Assembly: GCF_000424065.1 (NCBI RefSeq)
Contig: NZ_AUJE01000018.1
Span: forward strand, 1-64,000
Direction: 5' to 3'
DNA from: Selenomonas ruminantium subsp. ruminantium ATCC 12561
GTDB lineage: Bacteria > Bacillota > Negativicutes > Selenomonadales > Selenomonadaceae
Length of the DNA stretch: 64,000 nucleotides
A program made the translations under genes and the position numbers. The notes below the pieces were generated by a model. It did no database searches, was not told the DNA's origin, and worked only from the letters and a program-made list of their open reading frames with translations. This document shows positions 9,668 to 61,794 of this stretch, in pieces. Positions within the stretch are counted from its first letter, which is position 1. Each line of letters opens with the position of its first letter.

Positions 9668-11617
9668 TTAGATGGAGTTGCGGCTCCGGCGGAAACGGTA
9701 GGTGCCAAGCCCCAGTTCGCGCGGGCCTTTTTTGAGCGTTTCGAGGTCGTCGGCGTGGAAGGCCTCTTTGCCTGCCGTAAGATTATCCAAAGCTGTGCGG
9801 TAAATGCGGGTGACCATGCCGGCAAATTCCGGGGCATAGTCCTGTGCCTCAATGCGGTAAGCGCCTAAGCCGTTAAACTTCGCAAGGTACGGATAGAGGC
9901 AGAGGTCCTTGGCAAAGTAGATATGGTTGCGGCCAAACTGGTCAACGCGCAGGGAATGCTTTTCACCAGCCTTGTCGAGCAGGGCATAGCGGCGGTCGAG
10001 CACTTCGGGATTGTTGAGTTCATTGAAGAACGGCAGGCTCATGCCCGGAATATTGTGGTCACAAATCATGGACTCATAGGAGCCGTGGACAACAACTTCG
10101 ATGGGCAGCTCGGAGCTTTCGACGATTTCGCGCAGCTGCTCAAACGAAAGCTCGTAGGAAGCCGTGCCCATGGTCAGGCCATTTTCCTTAAGGAACTTGG
10201 CGGCCAGATGGTTAAAGAGGTTGAAGGACACATCAGCCTGTACTGGCAAATCCGTCAGGCGCTTGGCCAGCTTCAACGAGCCAAGGTTGCTGACCATTAT
10301 GCCGTCGGCTTTGAGTTCACGCTGTCTCAGAGCAGTGAAGAACTGTTCCAGTTCGCCGCATTCCCGGCGCATGGTCGTGCGCGGCGTGTTGATGATGATT
10401 TTGGCGCGGCCCTTGTTGTAGGCGATAACTTCGGCAAAATCTTTGAGACTCCAAGGCTTGTTGGGGCGGAAGGTTTCGCCGCCGACATAGACGATATCGG
10501 CACCGTTGTCAATAACAGCGCAGGCTGCACCAACGGTGTTTACGCGGACACTTAATGTACGGTGGTCAGGATTTGACTTGTCAATATCGCGTTCCTGTTT
10601 CAGGATTTCGTCCTGGAAACCTGCTTCCTTCACCGCATCGCTGAAGAAGCGCGGTTCACGCGTGCCGTCAAAGCCGATATCCTTTTTATCCGGGGAACCG
10701 AAGGCAAAGGTGGTCGTAAAGTCGCGGGCACGGTTCTCGTACAGGCTCTTCCAGCCTTCTTCATCCGGCTGCCAGCCCATCGGGTCAGCAATATAGGCAT
10801 CAATGGCCTTGCGGTAGGTGCTGACAATGCGGCGGATAAAGGGGGCAGGGCGCATACGGCCTTCGATTTTGAAGGAGAACACGCCAGCCTGAATGAGCTG
10901 GGGGATATGGCGGTACATGCACATGTCCTTGAGCGCCAGCTTATAGGCACCCTCGCTGTCCTTGTCGAGCACTTCGCCCGTCTTTTCGTCAATCAGCTGA
11001 TAGGCCCAGCGGCAGGGTTTCAGGCAGCGGCCACGGTTGCCGCTCTGGCCAAAGACCACGCCGGAGTGAATGCACTGGCCGCTTTCGCTGATGCACATAT
11101 CGCCGTGCATGAAGTATTCCACTTCAATGCCTGTGCGCTCACGGAACAGGGAGAGCTCGGAGAGCGTCATCTCACGGCCCACAACGACGCGGGTAATGCC
11201 GTATTCTTTGAGCTTTTCGATGGCGTGCTCGTTATGGGTATTCATCATAACGGAGGTGTGCACAGGAATCTTGATGCCCATTTCGTGAATGAGTTCGAGG
11301 ACAGCAAAGTCCTGCACCAAAATAGCATCCGGGCGGATTTCATTAAGGTAGGTGAGGTATTCACGCAGTGCGGGGATTTCCTCATCGCTGATCAGGTTGT
11401 TGAGGGTGATGTAAAGCTTCACGCCATGCTCATGGGTGTAGGCGATGGCCTTTTTGAGTATTTCATCATCAAAGTTGAAATCACCTTCGTGCATGCGCAT
11501 ATTAAAATGCTTGCCTCCGAGGTAGCAAGCATCAGCACCAGCTTCCACACCGGCCACCAGGGCATCCCAGGTACCGGCAGGTGCCAGCAGTTCTACGGAT
11601 TTACGATTTAACAGCAT
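9668..11617 (-). CDS. U32 family protein, RlhA-like
   Basis: A 649-residue protein of the U32 'peptidase' family, whose characterised bacterial members mostly modify RNA; RlhA hydroxylates C2501 of 23S rRNA and has nearly this length. The N-terminal VELLAPAGTWDALVAGVEAG and the U32 signature region (YFMHGDMCISESGQC, then SGNRGRCLKPCRW) carry four cysteines expected to hold an Fe-S cluster. AAAGGAG lies just before the ATG at 11617. It is the first gene of a two-gene unit with the aminotransferase and is divergent from the PucR-type regulator. The RNA target is inferred from length and family only. Confidence 0.8.
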   Translation of the reverse strand: MLLNRKSVELLAPAGTWDALVAGVEAGADACYLGGKHFNMRMHEGDFNFDDEILKKAIAYTHEHGVKLYITLNNLISDEEIPALREYLTYLNEIRPDAILVQDFAVLELIHEMGIKIPVHTSVMMNTHNEHAIEKLKEYGITRVVVGREMTLSELSLFRERTGIEVEYFMHGDMCISESGQCIHSGVVFGQSGNRGRCLKPCRWAYQLIDEKTGEVLDKDSEGAYKLALKDMCMYRHIPQLIQAGVFSFKIEGRMRPAPFIRRIVSTYRKAIDAYIADPMGWQPDEEGWKSLYENRARDFTTTFAFGSPDKKDIGFDGTREPRFFSDAVKEAGFQDEILKQERDIDKSNPDHRTLSVRVNTVGAACAVIDNGADIVYVGGETFRPNKPWSLKDFAEVIAYNKGRAKIIINTPRTTMRRECGELEQFFTALRQRELKADGIMVSNLGSLKLAKRLTDLPVQADVSFNLFNHLAAKFLKENGLTMGTASYELSFEQLREIVESSELPIEVVVHGSYESMICDHNIPGMSLPFFNELNNPEVLDRRYALLDKAGEKHSLRVDQFGRNHIYFAKDLCLYPYLAKFNGLGAYRIEAQDYAPEFAGMVTRIYRTALDNLTAGKEAFHADDLETLKKGPRELGLGTYRFRRSRNSI

Positions 11618-52578: not shown

Positions 52579-53993
52579 GTGAGGCCATGTGGGGAGGTCG
52601 TTTCACCAAGACCGTAGATGAAATGGTCAACGAATTCCAGGCCTCCATAAACTTTGACAAACGCATGTATCACGAAGATATTGCCGGTTCCATTGCCCAT
52701 GCCATCATGCTGGCCAAATGCGGCATTATCTCCGATGATGACTGCGGTGCCATTCTGCAGGGCTTAAAGGATATCGAAGCGCAGATTGAAGCCGGGGAGT
52801 TTGACTTCTCGGTGGATTTGGAAGATATCCACATGAATATCGAAAAGCGGCTGACCGAGGCCATTGGCGAAGCTGGCGGGCGGCTCCATACCGCCCGCAG
52901 CCGCAATGACCAGGTGGCACTCGATACTCACATGTACATCCGCCGGGAAGTGGTGGCCGTGCAGAAAGAAATCATCAATTTGCAGGAAGCCCTGCTCGAA
53001 ACAGCGAAGAAAAATCAGGATGTGATTATGCCTGGTTACACGCATCTGCAGCGGGCACAGCCGATTCTCTTTGCGCATCACCTGATGGCTTACTTCGGTA
53101 TGCTTTCCCGTGATTATGCCCGGTTCAGCGGCGTCTACCAGCGGGCGGATATCATGCCGTTAGGCGCTGGCGCGCTTGCCGGAACCACCTTCCCGATTGA
53201 CCGGGAACTTGTGGCCAAGCAGCTGAACTTCGAGCAGATTTACAGCAATAGTTTGGATGCGGTCAGCGACCGTGACTACATCATGGAATTTCTGTCGGCA
53301 GCCAGCATTTTGATGGTACATCTTTCCCGCTTGTCGGAAGAAACCATCCTCTGGTGCAGCCGTGAGTTCTCCTTTGTGGAACTTGATGATGCCCATTGCA
53401 CGGGCTCGTCCATGATGCCGCAGAAGAAGAATCCGGATGTTTCCGAACTCGTGCGCGGCAAGACGGGCCGGGTAATCGGCCACCTGATGGCTATGCTGAC
53501 CACGGTCAAAGGTTTGCCGTTGGCCTATAACAAGGATTTGCAAGAGGATAAGGAAGGTATCTTTGACTCTATCGACACGGTGAAATTCAGCCTGGGTGTC
53601 TATGCCCAGCTTATCCGTGGCATGAAGGTCAAGAAAGATGTTATGCGCAAGGCGGTGGAGGAGGACTTCTCCAATGCAACCGACCTGGCCGACTACCTGG
53701 TAAAGAAGGGCATGCCCTTCCGTCAGGCACATGCGGTATCCGGTACGGCCGTGCACAAATGCATTGCCGAGGGCAAATATCTTGCCGATATGACCCTGCC
53801 GGAATTGCAGGAACTCTCGCCGCTCTTTGAGGCCGACATCGCCGAGGCTTTGAAGCCGGAAACCTGCGTCAACCAGCGCATTTCCTTGGGCGGTACGTCA
53901 ACAGAGCAGGTCAAACTGCAGCTGACCGCCGCACAGGAACTTATCGACGCTGAAAAAAAGACCAATACGACATTGACGAGTCAACAAATCTGA
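52575..53993 (+). CDS. argH: Argininosuccinate lyase
   Basis: Last step, releasing arginine and fumarate. The 472-residue product has [46 protein letters not shown] and the fumarase-superfamily signature [12 protein letters not shown] (about 277-288). ATGA overlap with argG. Oddly, the last codons run into the first two copies of the TTGAC palindrome cluster, giving the tail [10 protein letters not shown], which may be a recent extension of the C-terminus. Confidence 0.97.
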
Positions 53994-54033
53994 CATGTCA
54001 ACATAAATTTGACAAGTCAAATTGACTTGTCAA
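53973..54033. repeat. Cluster of four TTGAC palindromes at the argH end
   Basis: TTGACGAGTCAA (53973-53984), CTGACATGTCAA (53990-54001), TTGACAAGTCAA (54009-54020) and TTGACTTGTCAA (54022-54033). The first two overlap the end of argH. The arms are constant (TTGAC/GTCAA) while the central two bases vary, as expected of protein-binding palindromes. Confidence 0.85.
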
Positions 54034-54041
54034 ACATAACG

Positions 54042-54086
54042 AAACAGCCTTGCAGAAGAAAGATTTTCTGTAAGGCTGTTTTTCGG
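54042..54086. terminator. Terminator of the arginine operon
   Basis: AAACAGCCTT.CAGAA pairs with TTCTG.AAGGCTGTTT (one bulge on each side), followed by TTTTTC. It lies directly after the palindrome cluster. Confidence 0.85.
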
Positions 54087-54415
54087 TTTGTACATGGAGT
54101 TCAAGAAGCTTGACAAATACACGTAGCGGATACTGAAAGAATGGATTGAAAACAATATGACATGTCAACTCCATAATATAGGAACTGTAAAGAATTTTTC
54201 CTGTAAATCCCCAGCTGAATACGTTTCGGAAATAACACAATGAACTTGTTATCTACCGCCGACGGGCGACACGTTGTGATAATATGAAATTATCGAATAA
54301 TGTAGCAGGTTTTTCCATGAGTGGTATCGAATAATCTCCATGAAGAAAATGCAGTGGAGAGCTAATTTTAACGTGTGTATGATTATAAGCAATTTATGGA
54401 TTAGCTTATAAAGAA
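54087..54415. other. Intergenic region before the helicase-nuclease
   Basis: About 330 AT-rich bases with no convincing gene; a minus-strand frame at 53998-54240 runs through the terminator and repeats and is not credible. Contains ATGACATGTCAA (54157-54168), another TTGAC-type palindrome, and an 11-bp direct repeat TATCGAATAAT at 54291-54301 and 54325-54335. Possible weak promoter TTGTGA (54274) with TAATGT (54298). Confidence 0.6.
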
Positions 54416-57400
54416 ATGTCGGTGATAAAAATGCATGATGAAAGAATAAATCATAAAACAGAATCGCAGTCTATAATTTATAATCGTGTATCATCTTTGT
54501 TTCAGTTTATTCAAGAATTGAATAAACTGAAACAGAAAACGATTCTTAATGTTAAAGATTATCGGTGGCATCTATGGTGTTCTGATTTGCCAAATGACCC
54601 GGAGAATATCAAGCTGTTTTATCAAGATAGAACTTCGGATGATGAGAATGTGTCAGTGGATGATGAGCAGGATAATGTACTGCTTAAGGTGCATAAGGAA
54701 GATTTTGAACCGTGTCCGGCGCCTGAGAATATTCTACTAGATTGGTTGAAAGATGGTTGGAATGATTTTCGTTGCGACCTAGAGTATTATGATGAAAAAG
54801 TTGTTATGGAAATTGATCCTGATACCGCGGAGGAAGTTGAAAAAGTAATATCTTTTGATGAGAATACGAACAGAGTTTGTGAATCGAAGCGTTGGTCTGT
54901 CCTTCGTGAACAATGGAGGGAAAATCAAAAAAGAATTGCTGGGAATCGTGATGTTTTTGATAAAATATATAGTGAATACTATGCGTTGAAACGGGATAGT
55001 GAAACAGAGGAGGTCGTTGTTGGAAATGGTATTTTTTGTGATGCAAGGAATACATCTGTTTGTCATCCAATATTGACACGTAGGGTAAAGTTGGACTTTG
55101 ATGCTGTCAGTAACACAATGTATATTCTTGATACTGATGCTGAGCCTGAGATTTACTCTGATGTATTAAAGATATTGAATGGTGTTAATCTGCAGACAAT
55201 CAATGCATTACAGGATGAATTGGTGGAAAAAGATTATCATCCGCTGGATAGAAATGATACCCCCGAATTTCTAAAAGTTTTAATTCGTCAATTGTCGTCA
55301 GATAGTGTTTATTCAAATAATGGAGAACCAGATGGTTGGAAGCATAATAACCGCTTTTTGCTTTATAATAATCCGTGTTTTATCCTTCGTAAGCGGCAGG
55401 ATGGTACGATAAGAGCCATAGAAAAAATCAATGAAGCGATTGGGGCGGGAATGGAAATCCCGAAAACGCTGATAGATTTAGTCAGTGGAGGAAAAGCAGA
55501 TGTTTCACCTGCTGATAGAGAATATTCCATTGAAGAACAGTTGGCCATGGTTGGCGGTGAGAGTGTAGATATTCTTCTGAGCAAGGAAGCTAATCGTGAA
55601 CAGTTGGAAATAGCGCATCGCATAGAGAAATATAATGCTGTGCTGGTTCAAGGGCCTCCTGGTACGGGTAAGACGCATACTATTGCTAATTTGTTAGGAC
55701 ATTTTATTGCACAGGGGAAAAGTGTCCTTGTTACCAGTCACACAACAAAAGCATTGGATGTCCTAAAAGATAAAATAGCACCAGGACTGCAAAGCCTTTG
55801 TGTGTCGTTGCTGGACGACTCTAATAAGGATATGGAGAGGTCTGTTGAAGGCATTACCAGCTTTATGTCGCATCATTCCGCAAATAGTCTGAAGAAAGAA
55901 ATGGAAACTATCGGTGAAGAGCGTAAAAGCATTATTGCTGGTCTGGCAAAGGTCAGGAAAAAAATTTTCATGTGCATTCAAAAGGAATGTGAATCGATTA
56001 TATATCAAGGGGAAAGTCTGACACCGACAGATGCAGCTAAATATGTTGCCTTCAATCAAGAAAAGTTAGATTATATTCCTGGCACAGTTAAGGCGGAGGC
56101 TGTGCTGCCTTTGACTTTTGATGAACTGGTCGAGCTGTACCGTAGCAATAAAATAATAACGGATATGGATGCTGCTGAGTTAAGTTATGACCTCCCTGCG
56201 CCGAATGAATTGCTAGGGGTAACTGATTTTGAAGAATTATGCCGGCATTATTCTGAGGTGGAACATCATATCAATTCTGTTAGTGAGGCAGGTTTTCTTT
56301 CTGTGGATGCGTCCACGGAAAGTCAGACCATCAAGTTTAGGTTGTTTGGTCGGGAATTTATAATTGGTTATCCAGCAAAAGAGCCAATCAAAGCATTAAA
56401 AGAGTATTGCAGTAAATATGGTGAAATTTTGCCTTGGCAGCAGGCCGTTGTGGTCGATGGCGAGACTGGAGGCGGGTATAGAACCCGCTGGGAACGTCTT
56501 ATCGAACAGGTTGAAATTACGAATGATTTGAGTGCCAAAATGGCCGATATAGGTCTGGGCATGGAGGTTACTTTTGCCGAAGGGATATTGGTGGATGATT
56601 TACTGGCACCATTAAAGGAAGCTAAAGGATATCTGGATAAAGGTAAATTGCCATTTATGTTTTCTGTTTTCCATAAGGCTTGTGATAAAGCTTTGAAATC
56701 TGTCCGGGTGTCTGGAAACGTACCATCTTGCAGTAAAGATTGTGAGGTGGCTATTCTGACGATTGAACTTCAACAGGCGCGTAGGAAATGTAATAATTTT
56801 TGGAATGAACTGCTGGTGCCGCATGGTGTATCGGAATTTCAGTCACTAGGGCCGCAGCCGGAACGAGCAGCTGTCCAATATACGCATTCTGTAGGCAAAT
56901 TTTTGAATTGGACTGCTACGGATTATATGGATTTTAGTAATTTGTTGAAGAGTGCAGGCCTTCCTGAGGCTGAGGTGTGTGGTATTACGGCGTTGGATTC
57001 TGCACAAACGGCACTTAGTAAACGCTTAACAGCTATTCATGAGTCTATTCCATTATGTTGTGATGTGTGCATGGATATCCTGAATCTAACTAGTTATCGG
57101 GAGCAGTTGGAAAAGCTTTCACAAATTCTTGTTAAGGATAAACGGGTGAATAGTAATATCCTGCAGGATATATATCGTGCAGTAGCGACAAAGAATACTG
57201 AACTTTATTGTGACTCACTGGGACGGTTGGTAGCTGTTTATGACAAATACAATGTAATGTTTAAGCGAAATGAGTATCTCAAACGCTTGCAACCTTATGC
57301 GCCGGATTGGGCGGAAGCGATCAGTAAACATGAAGGGATACATGGCAGTGATGTGGTTCGTAGTGATATCATGGAGGCGTGGAAGTGGCGGCAGTTATCT

Positions 57401-59431
57401 ATGCTGATTGAAGACCTTACGTCAACTCCGCTTAGTGAATATCAGGCAGAGAGCAGAAGATTGAGCAAAGCATATCGGGAAATTACAGCTAAGTATGCGG
57501 AGAAATCCGGTTGGTATCATTTGCTACGGAAGACAGAGGCAGATATGGATATGCAGCAGGCACTACAGGGATGGTGTTTGGCTGTGAAAAGAATTGGCAA
57601 GGGAAAAGGAAAAAGAGCACCTATGTTTAAGGTTGAAGCCAGAAAGAAGATGGAGAAATGTCAAGAGGCAGTTCCTGCTTGGATTATGCCAATTCATAAG
57701 GTAATGGAAAATTTGAATCCAGAAAAAAATACTTTTGATATTGTTATTGTGGATGAGGCGAGCCAGGCAGATATTTCATCTTTGGCAATCTTATTTATGG
57801 GCAAGAAAGTGATTGTAGTCGGTGATGATAAGCAAGTTAGTCCGATGGCAGTAGGGATTGATACGGATAAAACGGATAATTTGCGTCAAATGTATTTGTC
57901 ATCAGATATTCCCAATTATAAACTGTATGATTCTCAGACATCTATCTATGATATTGCTATGACCACATATCATCCATTGATGTTAAGGGAACATTTCCGT
58001 TGTGTGCCGGAAATCATTGGCTACAGTAACTGGCTTTCTTATGATGGTAAAATTATGCCGTTGCGCTCTGCCAGCAGCAGTAATTTGCTACCTGCAGTAG
58101 TGAATTACCGTGTGATTGATGGCAAAAGGGATGCACGAAGAAAAATTAATGAACCGGAAGCGAAGGCTGTTGTTGCATTGATGAAGGCGTGCATGGAACA
58201 GCCAGAGTATAAAGGGAAGTCATTTGGTGTGATATCCTTGTTGGGAATAGAGCAGGCTAAGCTAATTGAAAAGTTTATCACGCAGGATGAGGAGATAGAT
58301 GCACAAGAAAGGGAAGAACGGCGTATACTGTGCGGAGACTCTTCAAATTTTCAGGGGGATGAACGGGATGTTGTCTTTTTGAGCATGGTTGATAGTCCTT
58401 CCAATCCTACGGAAATTTTGACTAAGCGAGGAGATGGTGTACAGGATTCGACACGCAAGCGTTATAATGTTGCTGCCAGCCGTGCAAGAGATCAGCTATG
58501 GGTGGTTAATTCCTTAGACCATAATGTGAATCTTCAAGCTGGAGATATTAGAAAAGGTCTGCTTGAATATGCATTAAATCCTAATAATACAGAGGTTCAG
58601 CAAACTGTGGTTTCAGCAATGGCAGATTCAGAGTTTGAAATTCAGGTGGCGATGAAGCTGAAGTCTCGTGGATATCATATTGTACAGCAATGGGAAGTGG
58701 GTGCCTACAGAATTGACATGGTGGCTGTTTGTGGCGATAAAAAAGTGGCCATTGAGTGTGATGGTGAGCGTTATCATAGTTCGCCAGCACAGGTGCGTAA
58801 TGATATGGAACGTCAGACGATATTGGAACGCATTGGCTGGACATTTATCCGAATCAGGGGAAGTGAATACTTCAGACAGCCGGATAAGACTATTGAACGT
58901 GTAGTGGAAGAACTGGAGGATTTGGATATCCATCCTGAAGTATCTGAAGAAGTATCAATTGAAGCAGGAAGAGAAACGGAACTGCTGAAACGTGTCAAAC
59001 ATAGAGCTGAGATACTATTGCAATCAGAGTCAACAGTGGAAACTTCTATTGTTAACAAAGCTGATAGTGATGCTTTCTTAGATCATAATCCAACTGATGT
59101 TGGTATTGAGTTGCCAGTATCAACGGAAGTATCCGGTAAGGCTAATTCTGTTTTTGAGCAGCCAAGTTTGTTTTCAGGAGTGACAATGCAGCCTCCAAAG
59201 AGTTTAAGTGGAGTCGCGGAACTGTTAGAGCAGCATAACTATCAAGTGATTGATAAAAGTCAGGAGATGGAGGTAATCTGGGTTATAACGGAAAAGTCCG
59301 CCGAAAATGAGTTGCTTCAACTGCTAGGGGAGGAATACACGGTTATATGGAATAAGCGTGGCATAATATCGACAGAAAACGAGCCATATTTCAGTATAAG
59401 GAGTAGAGATTATGGCAAAAGAAAAAAGTGA
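54416..59431 (+). CDS. Large SF1 helicase with C-terminal Vsr/DUF559-like nuclease domain
   Basis: A 1671-residue protein. A long N-terminal region of unknown fold (about 1-400) is followed by an SF1 (Upf1/DNA2-like) helicase core split by a large insertion: Walker A VQGPPGTGKTHTIANLL (about 412), Walker B DIVIVDEASQADISSLA (about 1108), GDDKQVSPMA, REHFRC, FQGDERDVVFLSM (about 1310) and NVAASRARDQLWVV (about 1348). A PD-(D/E)xK-type nuclease, SEFEIQVAMKLKSRGY to YRIDMVAV and VAIECDGERYH (about 1403-1495), follows. Architecture resembles single-protein helicase-Vsr antiphage genes. Start may be ATG 54416 or 54431 (GGTGA upstream). It is AT-richer than its neighbours and overlaps the next gene by 20 bases. 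Confidence 0.85.
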   Translation: MSVIKMHDERINHKTESQSIIYNRVSSLFQFIQELNKLKQKTILNVKDYRWHLWCSDLPNDPENIKLFYQDRTSDDENVSVDDEQDNVLLKVHKEDFEPCPAPENILLDWLKDGWNDFRCDLEYYDEKVVMEIDPDTAEEVEKVISFDENTNRVCESKRWSVLREQWRENQKRIAGNRDVFDKIYSEYYALKRDSETEEVVVGNGIFCDARNTSVCHPILTRRVKLDFDAVSNTMYILDTDAEPEIYSDVLKILNGVNLQTINALQDELVEKDYHPLDRNDTPEFLKVLIRQLSSDSVYSNNGEPDGWKHNNRFLLYNNPCFILRKRQDGTIRAIEKINEAIGAGMEIPKTLIDLVSGGKADVSPADREYSIEEQLAMVGGESVDILLSKEANREQLEIAHRIEKYNAVLVQGPPGTGKTHTIANLLGHFIAQGKSVLVTSHTTKALDVLKDKIAPGLQSLCVSLLDDSNKDMERSVEGITSFMSHHSANSLKKEMETIGEERKSIIAGLAKVRKKIFMCIQKECESIIYQGESLTPTDAAKYVAFNQEKLDYIPGTVKAEAVLPLTFDELVELYRSNKIITDMDAAELSYDLPAPNELLGVTDFEELCRHYSEVEHHINSVSEAGFLSVDASTESQTIKFRLFGREFIIGYPAKEPIKALKEYCSKYGEILPWQQAVVVDGETGGGYRTRWERLIEQVEITNDLSAKMADIGLGMEVTFAEGILVDDLLAPLKEAKGYLDKGKLPFMFSVFHKACDKALKSVRVSGNVPSCSKDCEVAILTIELQQARRKCNNFWNELLVPHGVSEFQSLGPQPERAAVQYTHSVGKFLNWTATDYMDFSNLLKSAGLPEAEVCGITALDSAQTALSKRLTAIHESIPLCCDVCMDILNLTSYREQLEKLSQILVKDKRVNSNILQDIYRAVATKNTELYCDSLGRLVAVYDKYNVMFKRNEYLKRLQPYAPDWAEAISKHEGIHGSDVVRSDIMEAWKWRQLSMLIEDLTSTPLSEYQAESRRLSKAYREITAKYAEKSGWYHLLRKTEADMDMQQALQGWCLAVKRIGKGKGKRAPMFKVEARKKMEKCQEAVPAWIMPIHKVMENLNPEKNTFDIVIVDEASQADISSLAILFMGKKVIVVGDDKQVSPMAVGIDTDKTDNLRQMYLSSDIPNYKLYDSQTSIYDIAMTTYHPLMLREHFRCVPEIIGYSNWLSYDGKIMPLRSASSSNLLPAVVNYRVIDGKRDARRKINEPEAKAVVALMKACMEQPEYKGKSFGVISLLGIEQAKLIEKFITQDEEIDAQEREERRILCGDSSNFQGDERDVVFLSMVDSPSNPTEILTKRGDGVQDSTRKRYNVAASRARDQLWVVNSLDHNVNLQAGDIRKGLLEYALNPNNTEVQQTVVSAMADSEFEIQVAMKLKSRGYHIVQQWEVGAYRIDMVAVCGDKKVAIECDGERYHSSPAQVRNDMERQTILERIGWTFIRIRGSEYFRQPDKTIERVVEELEDLDIHPEVSEEVSIEAGRETELLKRVKHRAEILLQSESTVETSIVNKADSDAFLDHNPTDVGIELPVSTEVSGKANSVFEQPSLFSGVTMQPPKSLSGVAELLEQHNYQVIDKSQEMEVIWVITEKSAENELLQLLGEEYTVIWNKRGIISTENEPYFSIRSRDYGKRKK

Positions 59432-59657
59432 TGTAAAATTTGAAATGGCAAACGAATTAGGGGTGATTTCGGAAAAGGAAAAGGGATGGAGGTTGGAATT
59501 TAATCGGGTAATATGGAATGGAAGAGACCCGAAATATGATATTCGTGCTTGGGGGCCTAACCGTGAAAAAATGGGTAAGGGAATAACATTGACAGAAGAT
59601 GAGTTGAGAAAGCTGAAAGAACTCATTGACAAGGAAATTGCTTTTTTAGACAGTTGA
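59412..59657 (+). CDS. PC4/YdbC-like ssDNA-binding protein
   Basis: An 81-residue protein resembling YdbC, the bacterial member of the PC4 (transcription coactivator p15) ssDNA-binding fold: ELGVISEKEKGWRLEFNRV, then WNGRDPKYDIRAWGPNREKMGKGITLT and a C-terminal helix ELRKLKELIDKEIAFL. It starts 20 bases inside the helicase-nuclease gene in another frame, so the two are translated from one mRNA and probably work together. Family assignment is from remembered sequence pattern (WNGR.PKYDIR, KMGKGITLT); I consider it likely. YdbC proteins are usually stand-alone genes. Confidence 0.75.
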   Translation: MAKEKSDVKFEMANELGVISEKEKGWRLEFNRVIWNGRDPKYDIRAWGPNREKMGKGITLTEDELRKLKELIDKEIAFLDS

Positions 59658-59680
59658 GATAGTGGATTGAGATACTGAGG

Positions 59681-59736
59681 CAGGCGGCTGGGTTTTGCAA
59701 ACATGACTTTGACAAGTCAAGCTGTCTGCTTTTTGT
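59681..59736 (+). terminator. Terminator after the helicase/PC4 pair, with TTGAC palindrome in the loop
   Basis: CAGGCGGCT and AGCTGTCTG can pair fully if G-U pairs are allowed, followed by CTTTTTG. The loop carries TTGACAAGTCAA (59709-59720). Confidence 0.6.
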
Positions 59737-59793
59737 ATATTATCTAAGTGGCGTTCATTATCTTTAAGTGAAAATGGAGAGGCGAGAAAACTT

Positions 59794-60294
59794 ATGTCAA
59801 AATGGAATATGGCTGATAGGCCTTATGAAAGTAGAGAGTATCTTCAAGGATGGTCTATCGCAGGAAAACAATTACAGACATTATTCAACAAATATAATGA
59901 GGGAATATTAAACGTATATCAAGGATTTTGTTGGATAAGAACACAAATTATTAGCCCTACTTTTGATTCAATGAATTTTAGATATAAGAATAGAGTATAT
60001 TCAGTATTGGTAGATTTAGTTACCGAGGGGGAAAGTTCCCTGTTAGGTAATTTAAGACCATATCAGGAAAGTGCTTTTAATCGTAAGGGGACCGGCAAGC
60101 AGCAATATATGTGTCATGTTTCCGATGAACATGTACGATTCTTGATGGAACAAGCCAAGAAGCATCAGCGCAAGGGAAAGGTCTTAGAGGTTATTAACCG
60201 CGTATATAGACAGGCAGGCGATGAGGTAGAAGTCGAGGGAGAACACCGTGGCCTTATGCCCAAATTGTCACAAGCGCATGCACGTGCTCAATGA
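59794..60294 (+). CDS. Hypothetical protein
   Basis: A 166-residue soluble, basic protein starting MSKWNMADRPYESREYLQGW, with aromatic-rich ILNVYQGFCWIRTQIISPTF and a C-terminal basic region (KKHQRKGKVLEVINRVYRQ). It is not hydrophobic and has no recognisable enzymatic motif. GGAGAGGCG lies upstream of the ATG. It sits between the helicase/PC4 pair and small unknown genes and could belong to the same accessory cluster. Confidence 0.55.
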   Translation: MSKWNMADRPYESREYLQGWSIAGKQLQTLFNKYNEGILNVYQGFCWIRTQIISPTFDSMNFRYKNRVYSVLVDLVTEGESSLLGNLRPYQESAFNRKGTGKQQYMCHVSDEHVRFLMEQAKKHQRKGKVLEVINRVYRQAGDEVEVEGEHRGLMPKLSQAHARAQ

Positions 60295-60338
60295 GGAGAG
60301 GGCAGTAAAGTTGCTGCAGAGTCGGAATCGAAGAAAAT

Positions 60339-60381
60339 AAAGCGGTTGACATGTCAAAAATTGACTTATCAACCGCTTCTT
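60339..60381 (+). terminator. Terminator-like hairpin built of two TTGAC palindromes
   Basis: AAGCGGTTGA and TCAACCGCTT form a 10-bp stem followed by CTTTG. TTGACATGTCAA (60346-60357) and TTGACTTATCAA (60361-60372) overlap the stem and loop. Confidence 0.6.
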
Positions 60382-60395
60382 TGTATTACACTACT

Positions 60396-60566
60396 ATGAG
60401 TCCCTGGACTGAAGACAGACTGGATGAGCTGCTAAATAACGAAAAAGAGGCTCATAAGAAGGACAGGTACAAAAAATGCCCTGACTGTTATTGCTTGGGG
60501 AAGTGCCAGTCAGAGCGTATTAACCTTTGCGAACTGGGGAAGCTCGCTGACGGTACTATCCAATAG
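60396..60566 (+). CDS. Small cysteine-rich hypothetical protein
   Basis: A 56-residue candidate: MSPWTEDRLDELLNNEKEA helix followed by KKCPDCYCLGKCQSERINLC, with five cysteines that could bind zinc. The frame is open back to an ATG at 60351 inside the TTGAC hairpin. Neither start has a clear RBS, so expression is uncertain. No family recognised. Confidence 0.4.
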   Translation: MSPWTEDRLDELLNNEKEAHKKDRYKKCPDCYCLGKCQSERINLCELGKLADGTIQ

Positions 60567-60849
60567 GGATTAGGGAAAGGGTAGCACCGATATATGCTAT
60601 GTGACTTATTATATGGAATAATCCTGCCTGCAGTACTGTATTTTTTTACATAAATATAGCCTGATGACTGTGGAAATATACATTCGGTTAAGGATTTGAG
60701 GCAAAGGGCGTATAATAAATTCATTATTTGTGCGTTATCGTTGTTATATAAGCTTGCAGTTTTGTCTGGAGTTATGGTATGTTATTGACTATCCCCTTGA
60801 CGGCGGAAATGCCGTCAAAGAATTAAGAGATGTAAAGGAGTATCCCGAA
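60567..60849. other. Spacer with a short hairpin
   Basis: Mostly AT-rich, with no confident gene. TTGACGGC (60798-60805) and GCCGTCAA pair around GGAAAT. The frame of the following small gene is open upstream through this area (VIDYPLDGGNAVKELRDV), so that gene may begin earlier than annotated. Confidence 0.5.
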
Positions 60850-60990
60850 ATGTGTGTGTTACGGTTTGAAGAGAGGCCCAAGAAATTTAACGAAGGCAGT
60901 GCAGTGCGGCTTATTGATGTACTAAGAAAACAGCATACAGAAAAGCCGGATAGAGCGTCAGAACAGAATAAAAGTGTGGATGTAGAATGA
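60850..60990 (+). CDS. Small hypothetical protein
   Basis: A 46-residue candidate starting MCVLRFEERPKKFNEGSAV, with AAAGGAG nine bases before the ATG. Its TGA overlaps the ATG of the next gene (ATGA), so the pair is translationally coupled. The frame is open further upstream and the sequence there also looks protein-like, so the true protein may be longer. No family recognised. Confidence 0.45.
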   Translation: MCVLRFEERPKKFNEGSAVRLIDVLRKQHTEKPDRASEQNKSVDVE

Positions 60991-61226
60991 AGATGATGAC
61001 CATCAATTTTGACGGTGAAGAATATCCGGCTAGATTAATCGATGTAAGCGGCAAGCGCTTGATATCAATAGATAGGCTGGATGTTGCCCTTATGACAAAA
61101 GCCGGCTGTTATGTATCAGAGGAAGCCCGCGCTATTGATGAAGGTATTTTTCTCTATGTACCAGAGCCAATCCTAGTATCTGATGAAAAGACACTTGTGC
61201 GGTATGTAAAGGAACTTGTAGTGTGA
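60987..61226 (+). CDS. Small hypothetical protein
   Basis: A 79-residue protein starting MKMMTINFDGEEYPARLIDV and containing KRLISIDRLDVALMTKAGCYVSEE (read in two parts). It overlaps the previous small gene by four bases and ends 19 bases before crcB. No membrane segment or catalytic motif is visible and no family is recognised. The overlap and size would suit a two-component module such as toxin-antitoxin, but nothing in the sequences proves it. Confidence 0.55.
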   Translation: MKMMTINFDGEEYPARLIDVSGKRLISIDRLDVALMTKAGCYVSEEARAIDEGIFLYVPEPILVSDEKTLVRYVKELVV

Positions 61227-61245
61227 TTTAACGAGGAGTAAATAC

Positions 61246-61629
61246 ATGCAGTTTTTATATGTGTTCATTGGAGGCGGGCTCGGAGCAGTGTGCCGTTATA
61301 TGGCGACCACAGCCATAGGTGCAAGATTTGGGAGGATGTTTCCCTTTGGGACATTATTGGTAAACACAGTGGGGAGTTTCTTTATGGCGCTTGTTATGGG
61401 GATTTTGTTGTCGCTGGCCAAATCGGCCAACATGCTTCCGGAATCTTTGCGGTTGTTGTTGACCGTGGGTTTCTTAGGTGGATTTACAACATTTTCATCC
61501 TTTAGCATGGAAACCTTGACCTTGATAAATGGAGGCAACATATTCTTGGCCTTGGCTAATGTTTGTGCCAATGTATTACTGGGACTTGGTGCGGCAATAC
61601 TTGGTTTTCATATTGCAGCCGCTTTATAG
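61246..61629 (+). CDS. crcB: Fluoride channel CrcB/Fluc
   Basis: Exports fluoride across the inner membrane as a dual-topology dimer. The 127-residue product has four hydrophobic helices, GGGLGAVCRYMATT, FPFGTLLVNTVGSFFMAL with the pore asparagine, and the signature GFLGGFTTFSSFSMET with phenylalanines and the Na+-site GGFTTFS. AACGAGGAG precedes the ATG. No fluoride (crcB) riboswitch was found in the 60 bases upstream or in the spacer before the two small genes. Confidence 0.93.
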   Translation: MQFLYVFIGGGLGAVCRYMATTAIGARFGRMFPFGTLLVNTVGSFFMALVMGILLSLAKSANMLPESLRLLLTVGFLGGFTTFSSFSMETLTLINGGNIFLALANVCANVLLGLGAAILGFHIAAAL

Positions 61630-61794
61630 TCAGCAACAAATTCAGAATAACGAATAAAAGTATATCTTTTGAGGAAAGTAACATATCGGAAAAAGTGCCA
61701 ATAGTTATGGTAATACATTCTGCAAGGCTCTTTTGACATCTTTGCTTATAAATTATACAATAGGCTTATATTGTTAAAGCAGGAGGAACGCCGG

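Follow-up and report, generated by a model that had tools for sequence, protein, structure and literature searches.

A helicase-nuclease gene overlapping a PC4/YdbC-family gene in Selenomonas ruminantium: a candidate two-gene DNA-processing module

The 64,000-nucleotide stretch of Selenomonas ruminantium subsp. ruminantium ATCC 12561 analysed here (the window) carries a gene for an SF1 helicase-nuclease that overlaps a gene of the PC4/YdbC family. The large protein has SF1 motor motifs and a Vsr-fold nuclease with its acidic residues, the PC4-family gene is under purifying selection, and the two genes are co-inherited. We hold, with middling confidence, that they form a two-gene DNA-processing module, most likely directed against phages or plasmids, in which the PC4 protein would manage single-stranded DNA (ssDNA) for the motor-nuclease. 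Helicase-nuclease defence proteins are known; a dedicated PC4 partner would be the new part.

The two genes and their products

The pair consists of two open reading frames on the forward strand, 54416-59431 (1671 residues) and 59412-59657 (81 residues), which have the 20 bases 59412-59431 in common. The first was assigned by reading frame, Pfam, motifs and a fold model, and the second by reading frame, Pfam, phmmer and dN/dS. A Shine-Dalgarno-like AAGGAG of the PC4 gene lies within the helicase gene (59398-59403, forward strand), 8 nt before the PC4 ATG. The GC content through the pair was 35.5-44%, compared with 51-54% in the upstream arg cluster. The sizes, the overlap and the AT-richness claimed for the pair by a sequence-only reading of this DNA were thus confirmed. 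ARAGORN found no tRNA genes in the 64-kb window, and scans for promoters (26 promoter-like sites versus 18.7 ± 4.4) and terminators (4 terminator-like versus 3.6) were near chance.

Pfam placed the helicase parts AAA_11 and AAA_12 in the large protein. Walker A, GPPGTGKT (residues 413-420; 55652-55675, forward strand), was invariant in the homologue alignment, the Walker B region is VIVDEASQ (residues 1110-1117; 57743-57766, forward strand), and what we take to be motif VI is at residue 1349. Walker A and Walker B are about 690 residues apart, and this spacing is mostly helical in the model. Both the SF1 motifs and the large insertion between the two Walker motifs had been noted in the sequence-only reading, and both are present. 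The motor was modelled as residues 385-1540 (mean pLDDT 81.6, pTM 0.50). Foldseek matched this model to SETX, Sen1, DNA2, IGHMBP2 and UPF1 (best E 3.4e-9 to 5.6e-7), with a query TM of only about 0.2. VIA-align placed the coronavirus helicases first (Z 17.6 over 314 residues), followed by IGHMBP2 (16.1), UPF1 (15.9), UvrD (15.7) and DNA2 (15.3). RNA helicases are among the fold matches, and UvrD, a 3'-5' helicase, comes close behind UPF1. The large protein thus has an SF1 motor core, most likely of the Upf1/DNA2 side. Its polarity, judged from the helicase class only, is probably 5'-3'.

The nuclease domain comprises residues 1407-1500 (58634-58915, forward strand) and was found by Pfam, fold model and alignment. 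PF18741 (MTES_1575 REase) scored 106.4 bits against a cut-off of 38.2. The motifs YRIDMVAV (from residue 1431) and VAIECDG (from residue 1444) carry the acids D1434 and E1447. The C-terminal model, residues 1395-1671 (pLDDT 81.0, pTM 0.46), contains in order the Vsr-type nuclease, a low-confidence linker and a confident small domain. The nuclease in this model aligned with 3r3p at Z 13.0 and with Vsr (1cw0) at Z 11.0 (rmsd 2.0, 99 residues aligned). Because the nuclease is of Vsr type, the motor would be expected to act on DNA. The nuclease itself had been recognised in the sequence-only reading; its placement at the C-terminus was inexact, as a tail of about 130 residues with the small domain follows it.

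The C-terminal small domain (CTD; about residues 1597-1670, 59204-59425, forward strand) was delimited by alignment and model as a divergent 'VDKR..WVIGG' module. It resembles the tails of the homologues L024 and G407 ('VDKRTNGGSLWIIGG...GGRATKNQPGWW') at 19-22% identity. A search of PHROGs with the window tail found no CTD family, and a PDB sequence search with the CTD tails of two relatives gave nothing better than E 0.06. A 'KRG' motif in the CTD was present in 7 of 7 PC4-linked copies and 0 of 2 unlinked copies. As a mark of PC4 linkage in these sequences the motif is suggestive only, and overall CTD identity does not group the linked copies. Two other homologues (L075 and L076; open frames of 1655 and 1882 aa) bear different C-terminal tails, so the tail of this helicase family seems to be exchanged often.

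On its sequence, the 81-residue protein belongs to the PC4/YdbC family, as had been proposed. PF02229 (PC4) scored 40.3 bits against a cut-off of 25, and phmmer matched residues 7-72 to YdbC (2ltd, E 1.3e-22) and also found SP_0782 (2l3a, E 2.2e-17). These two members of the same family are uncharacterized proteins in the PDB table, which names no helicase partner for them. Compared with the PC4 genes of G024, G013 and G272, dN was 0.12-0.14 and dS was 1.8-3.8, which is saturated. The low dN against saturated dS indicates a real gene under purifying selection. PC4/YdbC relatives also occur in 21 phage records (hits H25-H44), for example Bacillus phages AR9 and PBS1, and PHROG 26484 is a DNA-binding protein family.

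Genomic setting and inheritance of the pair

The pair lies on an insertion of about 7.6 kb between the argH terminator and hsdM (approximately 54083-61734), as determined by comparison with four relatives (G008, G020, G003 and G017). In these relatives the insertion is absent and hsdM follows argH within about 160 bp. The pair is accessory. The cargo consists of the helicase gene, the PC4 gene, small ORFs and a crcB-like gene, and about 26 nt of the argH terminator were matched at both insertion ends. The hsdM gene starts at 61771, and the claimed spacing of about 2.1 kb to hsdM-hsdS held. The sequence-only reading was right about this closeness; the link itself is weak, as the crcB-like gene stands between PC4 and hsdM, and hsdM lies by argH without the pair in the four relatives. 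A tie between the pair and the type I restriction-modification operon was therefore set aside. That locus (window 61771 onward; L036:1771-10151) comprises hsdM, hsdS, an integrase-like gene, a partial hsdS and hsdR, mostly beyond the window, with hsdM named by Pfam and the others by eye. It looks like a phase-variable specificity locus.

A palindrome, TTGACAWGTCAA, had 21 matches in the window with at most one mismatch (both strands counted), versus 0.55 expected. Copies lie at 53973-54168, 59709-59720 and 60346-60372, and also at 10573, 45759, 45794 and 48790. They cluster after argH and just after the PC4 gene, and similar copies follow argH in relatives. A host intergenic repeat and a regulator site are candidate readings.

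The same genome encodes a 34%-identical helicase paralogue (G000:C33; L037:7051-11634, reverse strand), with relatives in L007-L020 and L053. Both nuclease acid positions are lost in the aligned paralogues L013, L018, L037 and L053, and these resident proteins may, by their sequences, be nuclease-dead. Because the window copy keeps the acids, it probably differs from them in job. Of the 22 genomes of the genus, 19 have the helicase family and 3 have any PC4 match. The breadth of the family and the paralogue in the same genome also suit a cellular role. The two genes might be a DNA repair or fork-maintenance pair that trims damaged or stalled host DNA rather than a defence, which we consider unlikely but a fair rival. 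DNA2 among the motor fold matches agrees with such a role, as does a gene resembling that for DNA polymerase III delta' (by eye) 2-5 kb from the helicase in L037 and L049, together with the breadth of the family in the genus. However, the window copy is part of an accessory insertion and keeps both nuclease acids that the paralogues have lost.

In the window's class (Negativicutes, 380 genomes), the helicase was found in 57 genomes (E at most 1e-60) and PC4 in 121 (E at most 1e-3). The two genes, judged by eye from coordinates, were adjacent in five of the 57: the window genome, G024, G272, G118 and G013, the last with its helicase split over contigs. In G036 and G290 a 69-76% identical helicase stops at or near a contig end, so adjacency is unreadable. 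The Clostridia sample had the helicase in 18 of 391 genomes, with PC4 adjacent in one of the 18 (G663); in G722 both genes are at contig ends and adjacency is likewise unreadable. Two of the three plasmid-collection records with a helicase match coverage of at least 90% had an adjacent PC4 gene. PC4 is just downstream of the helicase in Acetoanaerobium noterae (helicase 41.5%, PC4 65%) and just upstream, that is, in reverse order, in Fusobacteria bacterium ZRK30. A Fusobacterium vincentii record of this collection has the helicase without adjacent PC4. Helicase patterns gave no matches in viral contigs, and four phage records had partial helicase matches at 27-29% identity.

Eight adjacent pairs from three classes or phyla were thus collected: the five of the window's class, G663, A. 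noterae and ZRK30. When PC4 is downstream, the spacing is a 20-base overlap, 2 bp in three pairs, 4 bp or 11 bp (later start used). In G663 helicase and PC4 are separated by an ORF that carries the C-terminal domain and is either a gene in its own right or the product of a frameshift in an A run. The absence of the small gene beside most homologues had been named in advance as evidence against the pairing, and for the broad helicase family this is what was found (5 of 57 genomes in the class, 1 of 18 in Clostridia). PC4 as a mark of the whole family was rejected on these counts; adjacent PC4, as these sequences place it, marks subclades of the family. Beyond close relatives the pairing survived the survey, with eight pairs and a PC4 tree that mirrors the helicase tree.

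The helicase tree contained 36 sequences and was made by a quick method, with long branches; G013 was left out because of its split gene. The PC4 label changed three times on it, for the window with G024 and G272, for G118 with Acetoanaerobium and G663, and for ZRK30. L024 and L025 are sisters of the window helicase group and have no adjacent PC4; the L024 contig ends 365 bases past its helicase. The PC4 tree contained 77 sequences with few columns, many weak forks and a bootstrap that had not settled. On it, seven of the eight helicase-linked PC4 proteins fell in one group (99/76), with branching that agrees with the helicase tree, and the ZRK30 PC4 stood elsewhere. The pair therefore appears to be old. 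The ZRK30 pairing looks independent, because its order is reversed and its PC4 is elsewhere on the tree. The trees are most simply read as a single ancient pairing with losses in some lineages and a separate pairing event in Fusobacteria; alternatively, PC4 may have been gained several times. The sole other member of the helicase-linked PC4 group (L077:8568-8804, reverse strand) belongs to a genome without a helicase match (G119) and lies between dnaA and hsdM/S/R-like genes (neighbours named by eye).

PC4 could also be a passenger, or regulate transcription at the locus, and not be a partner of the enzyme. Eukaryotic PC4 is a transcription cofactor (PMC4350104), and PC4/YdbC genes occur in many unrelated places. 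This reading is nevertheless quite unlikely, given the overlap or short gaps (2, 2, 2, 4 and 11 bp) in six pairs, the matching trees, core identities down to 40% within a set of six paired helicases, and the purifying selection on PC4.

Known systems and proposed mechanism

Among the curated antiphage models of NCBIfam, Hhe and ProA scored best for the helicase. The scores were 207.3 bits for Hhe (NF042953, cut-off 2000) and 235.7 bits for ProA (NF058533, cut-off 1500), and both models match the helicase motifs and nuclease region of the window protein. Hhe is a DUF4011 anti-phage protein; DUF4011 was not among the best 25 of 28 Pfam rows (E up to 0.1) for the large protein. The best PADLOC match was the candidate PDC-S37 (227.5 bits), with a best stretch covering 913-1370 of 1550 only. 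The Mokosh MkoA and MkoC models scored 77-135 bits, with their best stretches on the helicase part. The DNA2 helicase-nuclease, itself a motor fold match, joins an SF1 motor to a nuclease as the window protein does. RPA serves DNA2 as ssDNA-binding partner. The two enzymes differ in domain order and nuclease type, and PC4 is not RPA.

Druantia III DruE is a helicase-nuclease defence effector that engages ssDNA-containing intermediates; unlike the window protein it has a YprA-like helicase, and its abstract names no PC4 subunit (PMC13192584). A PC4-like fold is known in phage-host conflict from AcrIIA22, a 54-aa nickase countering Cas9, for which no helicase partner was found in the passages seen (PMC8545432). 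No pairing of YdbC/PC4 with a helicase-nuclease or a restriction-modification operon was found among the titles and abstract starts of the open-licence PubMed Central papers listed, with subscription papers outside this set; the sequence-only reading knew of no such system. Passage searches in the main text of PMC12458937 and PMC12839542 gave no mention of PC4.

We propose that the motor would load on exposed single strands, which replication forks, recombination intermediates or incoming DNA could offer, and would unwind the duplex, probably 5'-3'. PC4 would bind the released strand and stop its re-annealing. By analogy with RPA and DNA2, it might also guide or limit the nuclease cuts, and PC4 may make its contact with the enzyme at the CTD. 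Judged from context only, namely the accessory location, an intact nuclease and the genes that PC4 is found beside, defence is the likeliest role. Of the two-gene defence system put forward in the sequence-only reading, the domain assignments and the adjacency stood. Most homologues, including the sisters L024 and L025, have no adjacent PC4, most PC4 genes are in non-defence contexts (by eye), and PC4 relatives occur in phages; these facts count against the module.

PC4 might instead be an antidote-like guard that restrains the nuclease until phage ssDNA titrates it away, which we regard as very unlikely. The small gene is expressed together with a nuclease that may be toxic, and AcrIIA22, which is PC4-like, acts against a nuclease system in an indirect way, through a change to the DNA (PMC8545432). 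However, homologues such as L024, L025 and L069 keep the same nuclease motif without adjacent PC4. Under the preferred reading of PC4 as the ssDNA-managing partner, a direct handle would be gained on how helicase-nuclease defence proteins choose or tolerate DNA. One small removable gene would make an ssDNA role in a helicase-nuclease assayable.

PC4 genes beside restriction and nuclease genes

A survey of gene neighbours covered another 69 PC4 genes, at 68 loci, after four near-duplicate loci were dropped. Most of the genes were the best matches of the class, with eleven from Clostridia, six from the plasmid collection and four that are likely housekeeping. Neighbours had to be on the same strand within 100 bp, and were typed from Pfam matches or from close resemblance to a member that had been scanned. 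A restriction, nuclease, helicase or NACHT-type neighbour was found for 15 of the 69 genes: HsdR or its C-terminus (L059, L079, L101, L108, L113), an Eco57I-like type IIG enzyme (L044, L083, L085, L086, L088), a YhcG nuclease (L045, L089), a ResIII protein (L094), an SLFN-g3 helicase (L112) and a NACHT protein (L125). PC4 is directly behind restriction enzymes at at least 12 loci. Many of the 15 cases are related, so they represent about nine independent cases or fewer. The remaining loci are mostly housekeeping or conjugation contexts (by eye). The type IIG loci form a recurring operon of the enzyme followed by PC4. In four of the five, a YhcG-like nuclease gene comes after PC4 with an 8-base overlap, and an SNF2-PLD helicase is upstream in L044. 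This operon is possibly a further uncharacterised system.

Among the first 25 families of each tally, PADLOC assigned 5 REase_I, 5 type IIG and 5 PD_DExK to 48 PC4-neighbour proteins, and 2 REase_I, 2 specificity subunits and 3 mad3 to 65 of 66 outer genes, one being left out as it was also a test protein. These tallies are indicative at best, because the controls come from the same islands and the counts are among the families listed. In Clostridia, PC4 was found in 94 of 291 genomes (104 matches). Forty of the 104 were examined, taken at roughly every other row from the first five sixths of the list, with loci already in the survey skipped. A type IIG or HsdR-like gene was directly before PC4 in 3 of the 40, and the 14 query proteins had matches in 0 of 40 control windows taken in those genomes; this difference is too small in number to be significant alone. 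The data indicate a clear PC4-restriction adjacency in the window's class and a thin one in Clostridia.

PC4/YdbC proteins may repeatedly have come to serve DNA restriction machines as a cofactor that handles ssDNA, with separate lineages placed as the last gene or the small partner of SF1 helicase-nucleases, type I HsdR operons, SNF2-PLD with type IIG operons, SLFN-like helicases and YhcG nucleases. We put this rule forward tentatively, as a possibility somewhat short of even. With PC4 genes found behind those for HsdR and type IIG enzymes, a general ssDNA role in restriction becomes testable. If the rule is true, a little-studied 'housekeeping' family would double as a general subunit of defence systems, with the window pair as one case of the rule.
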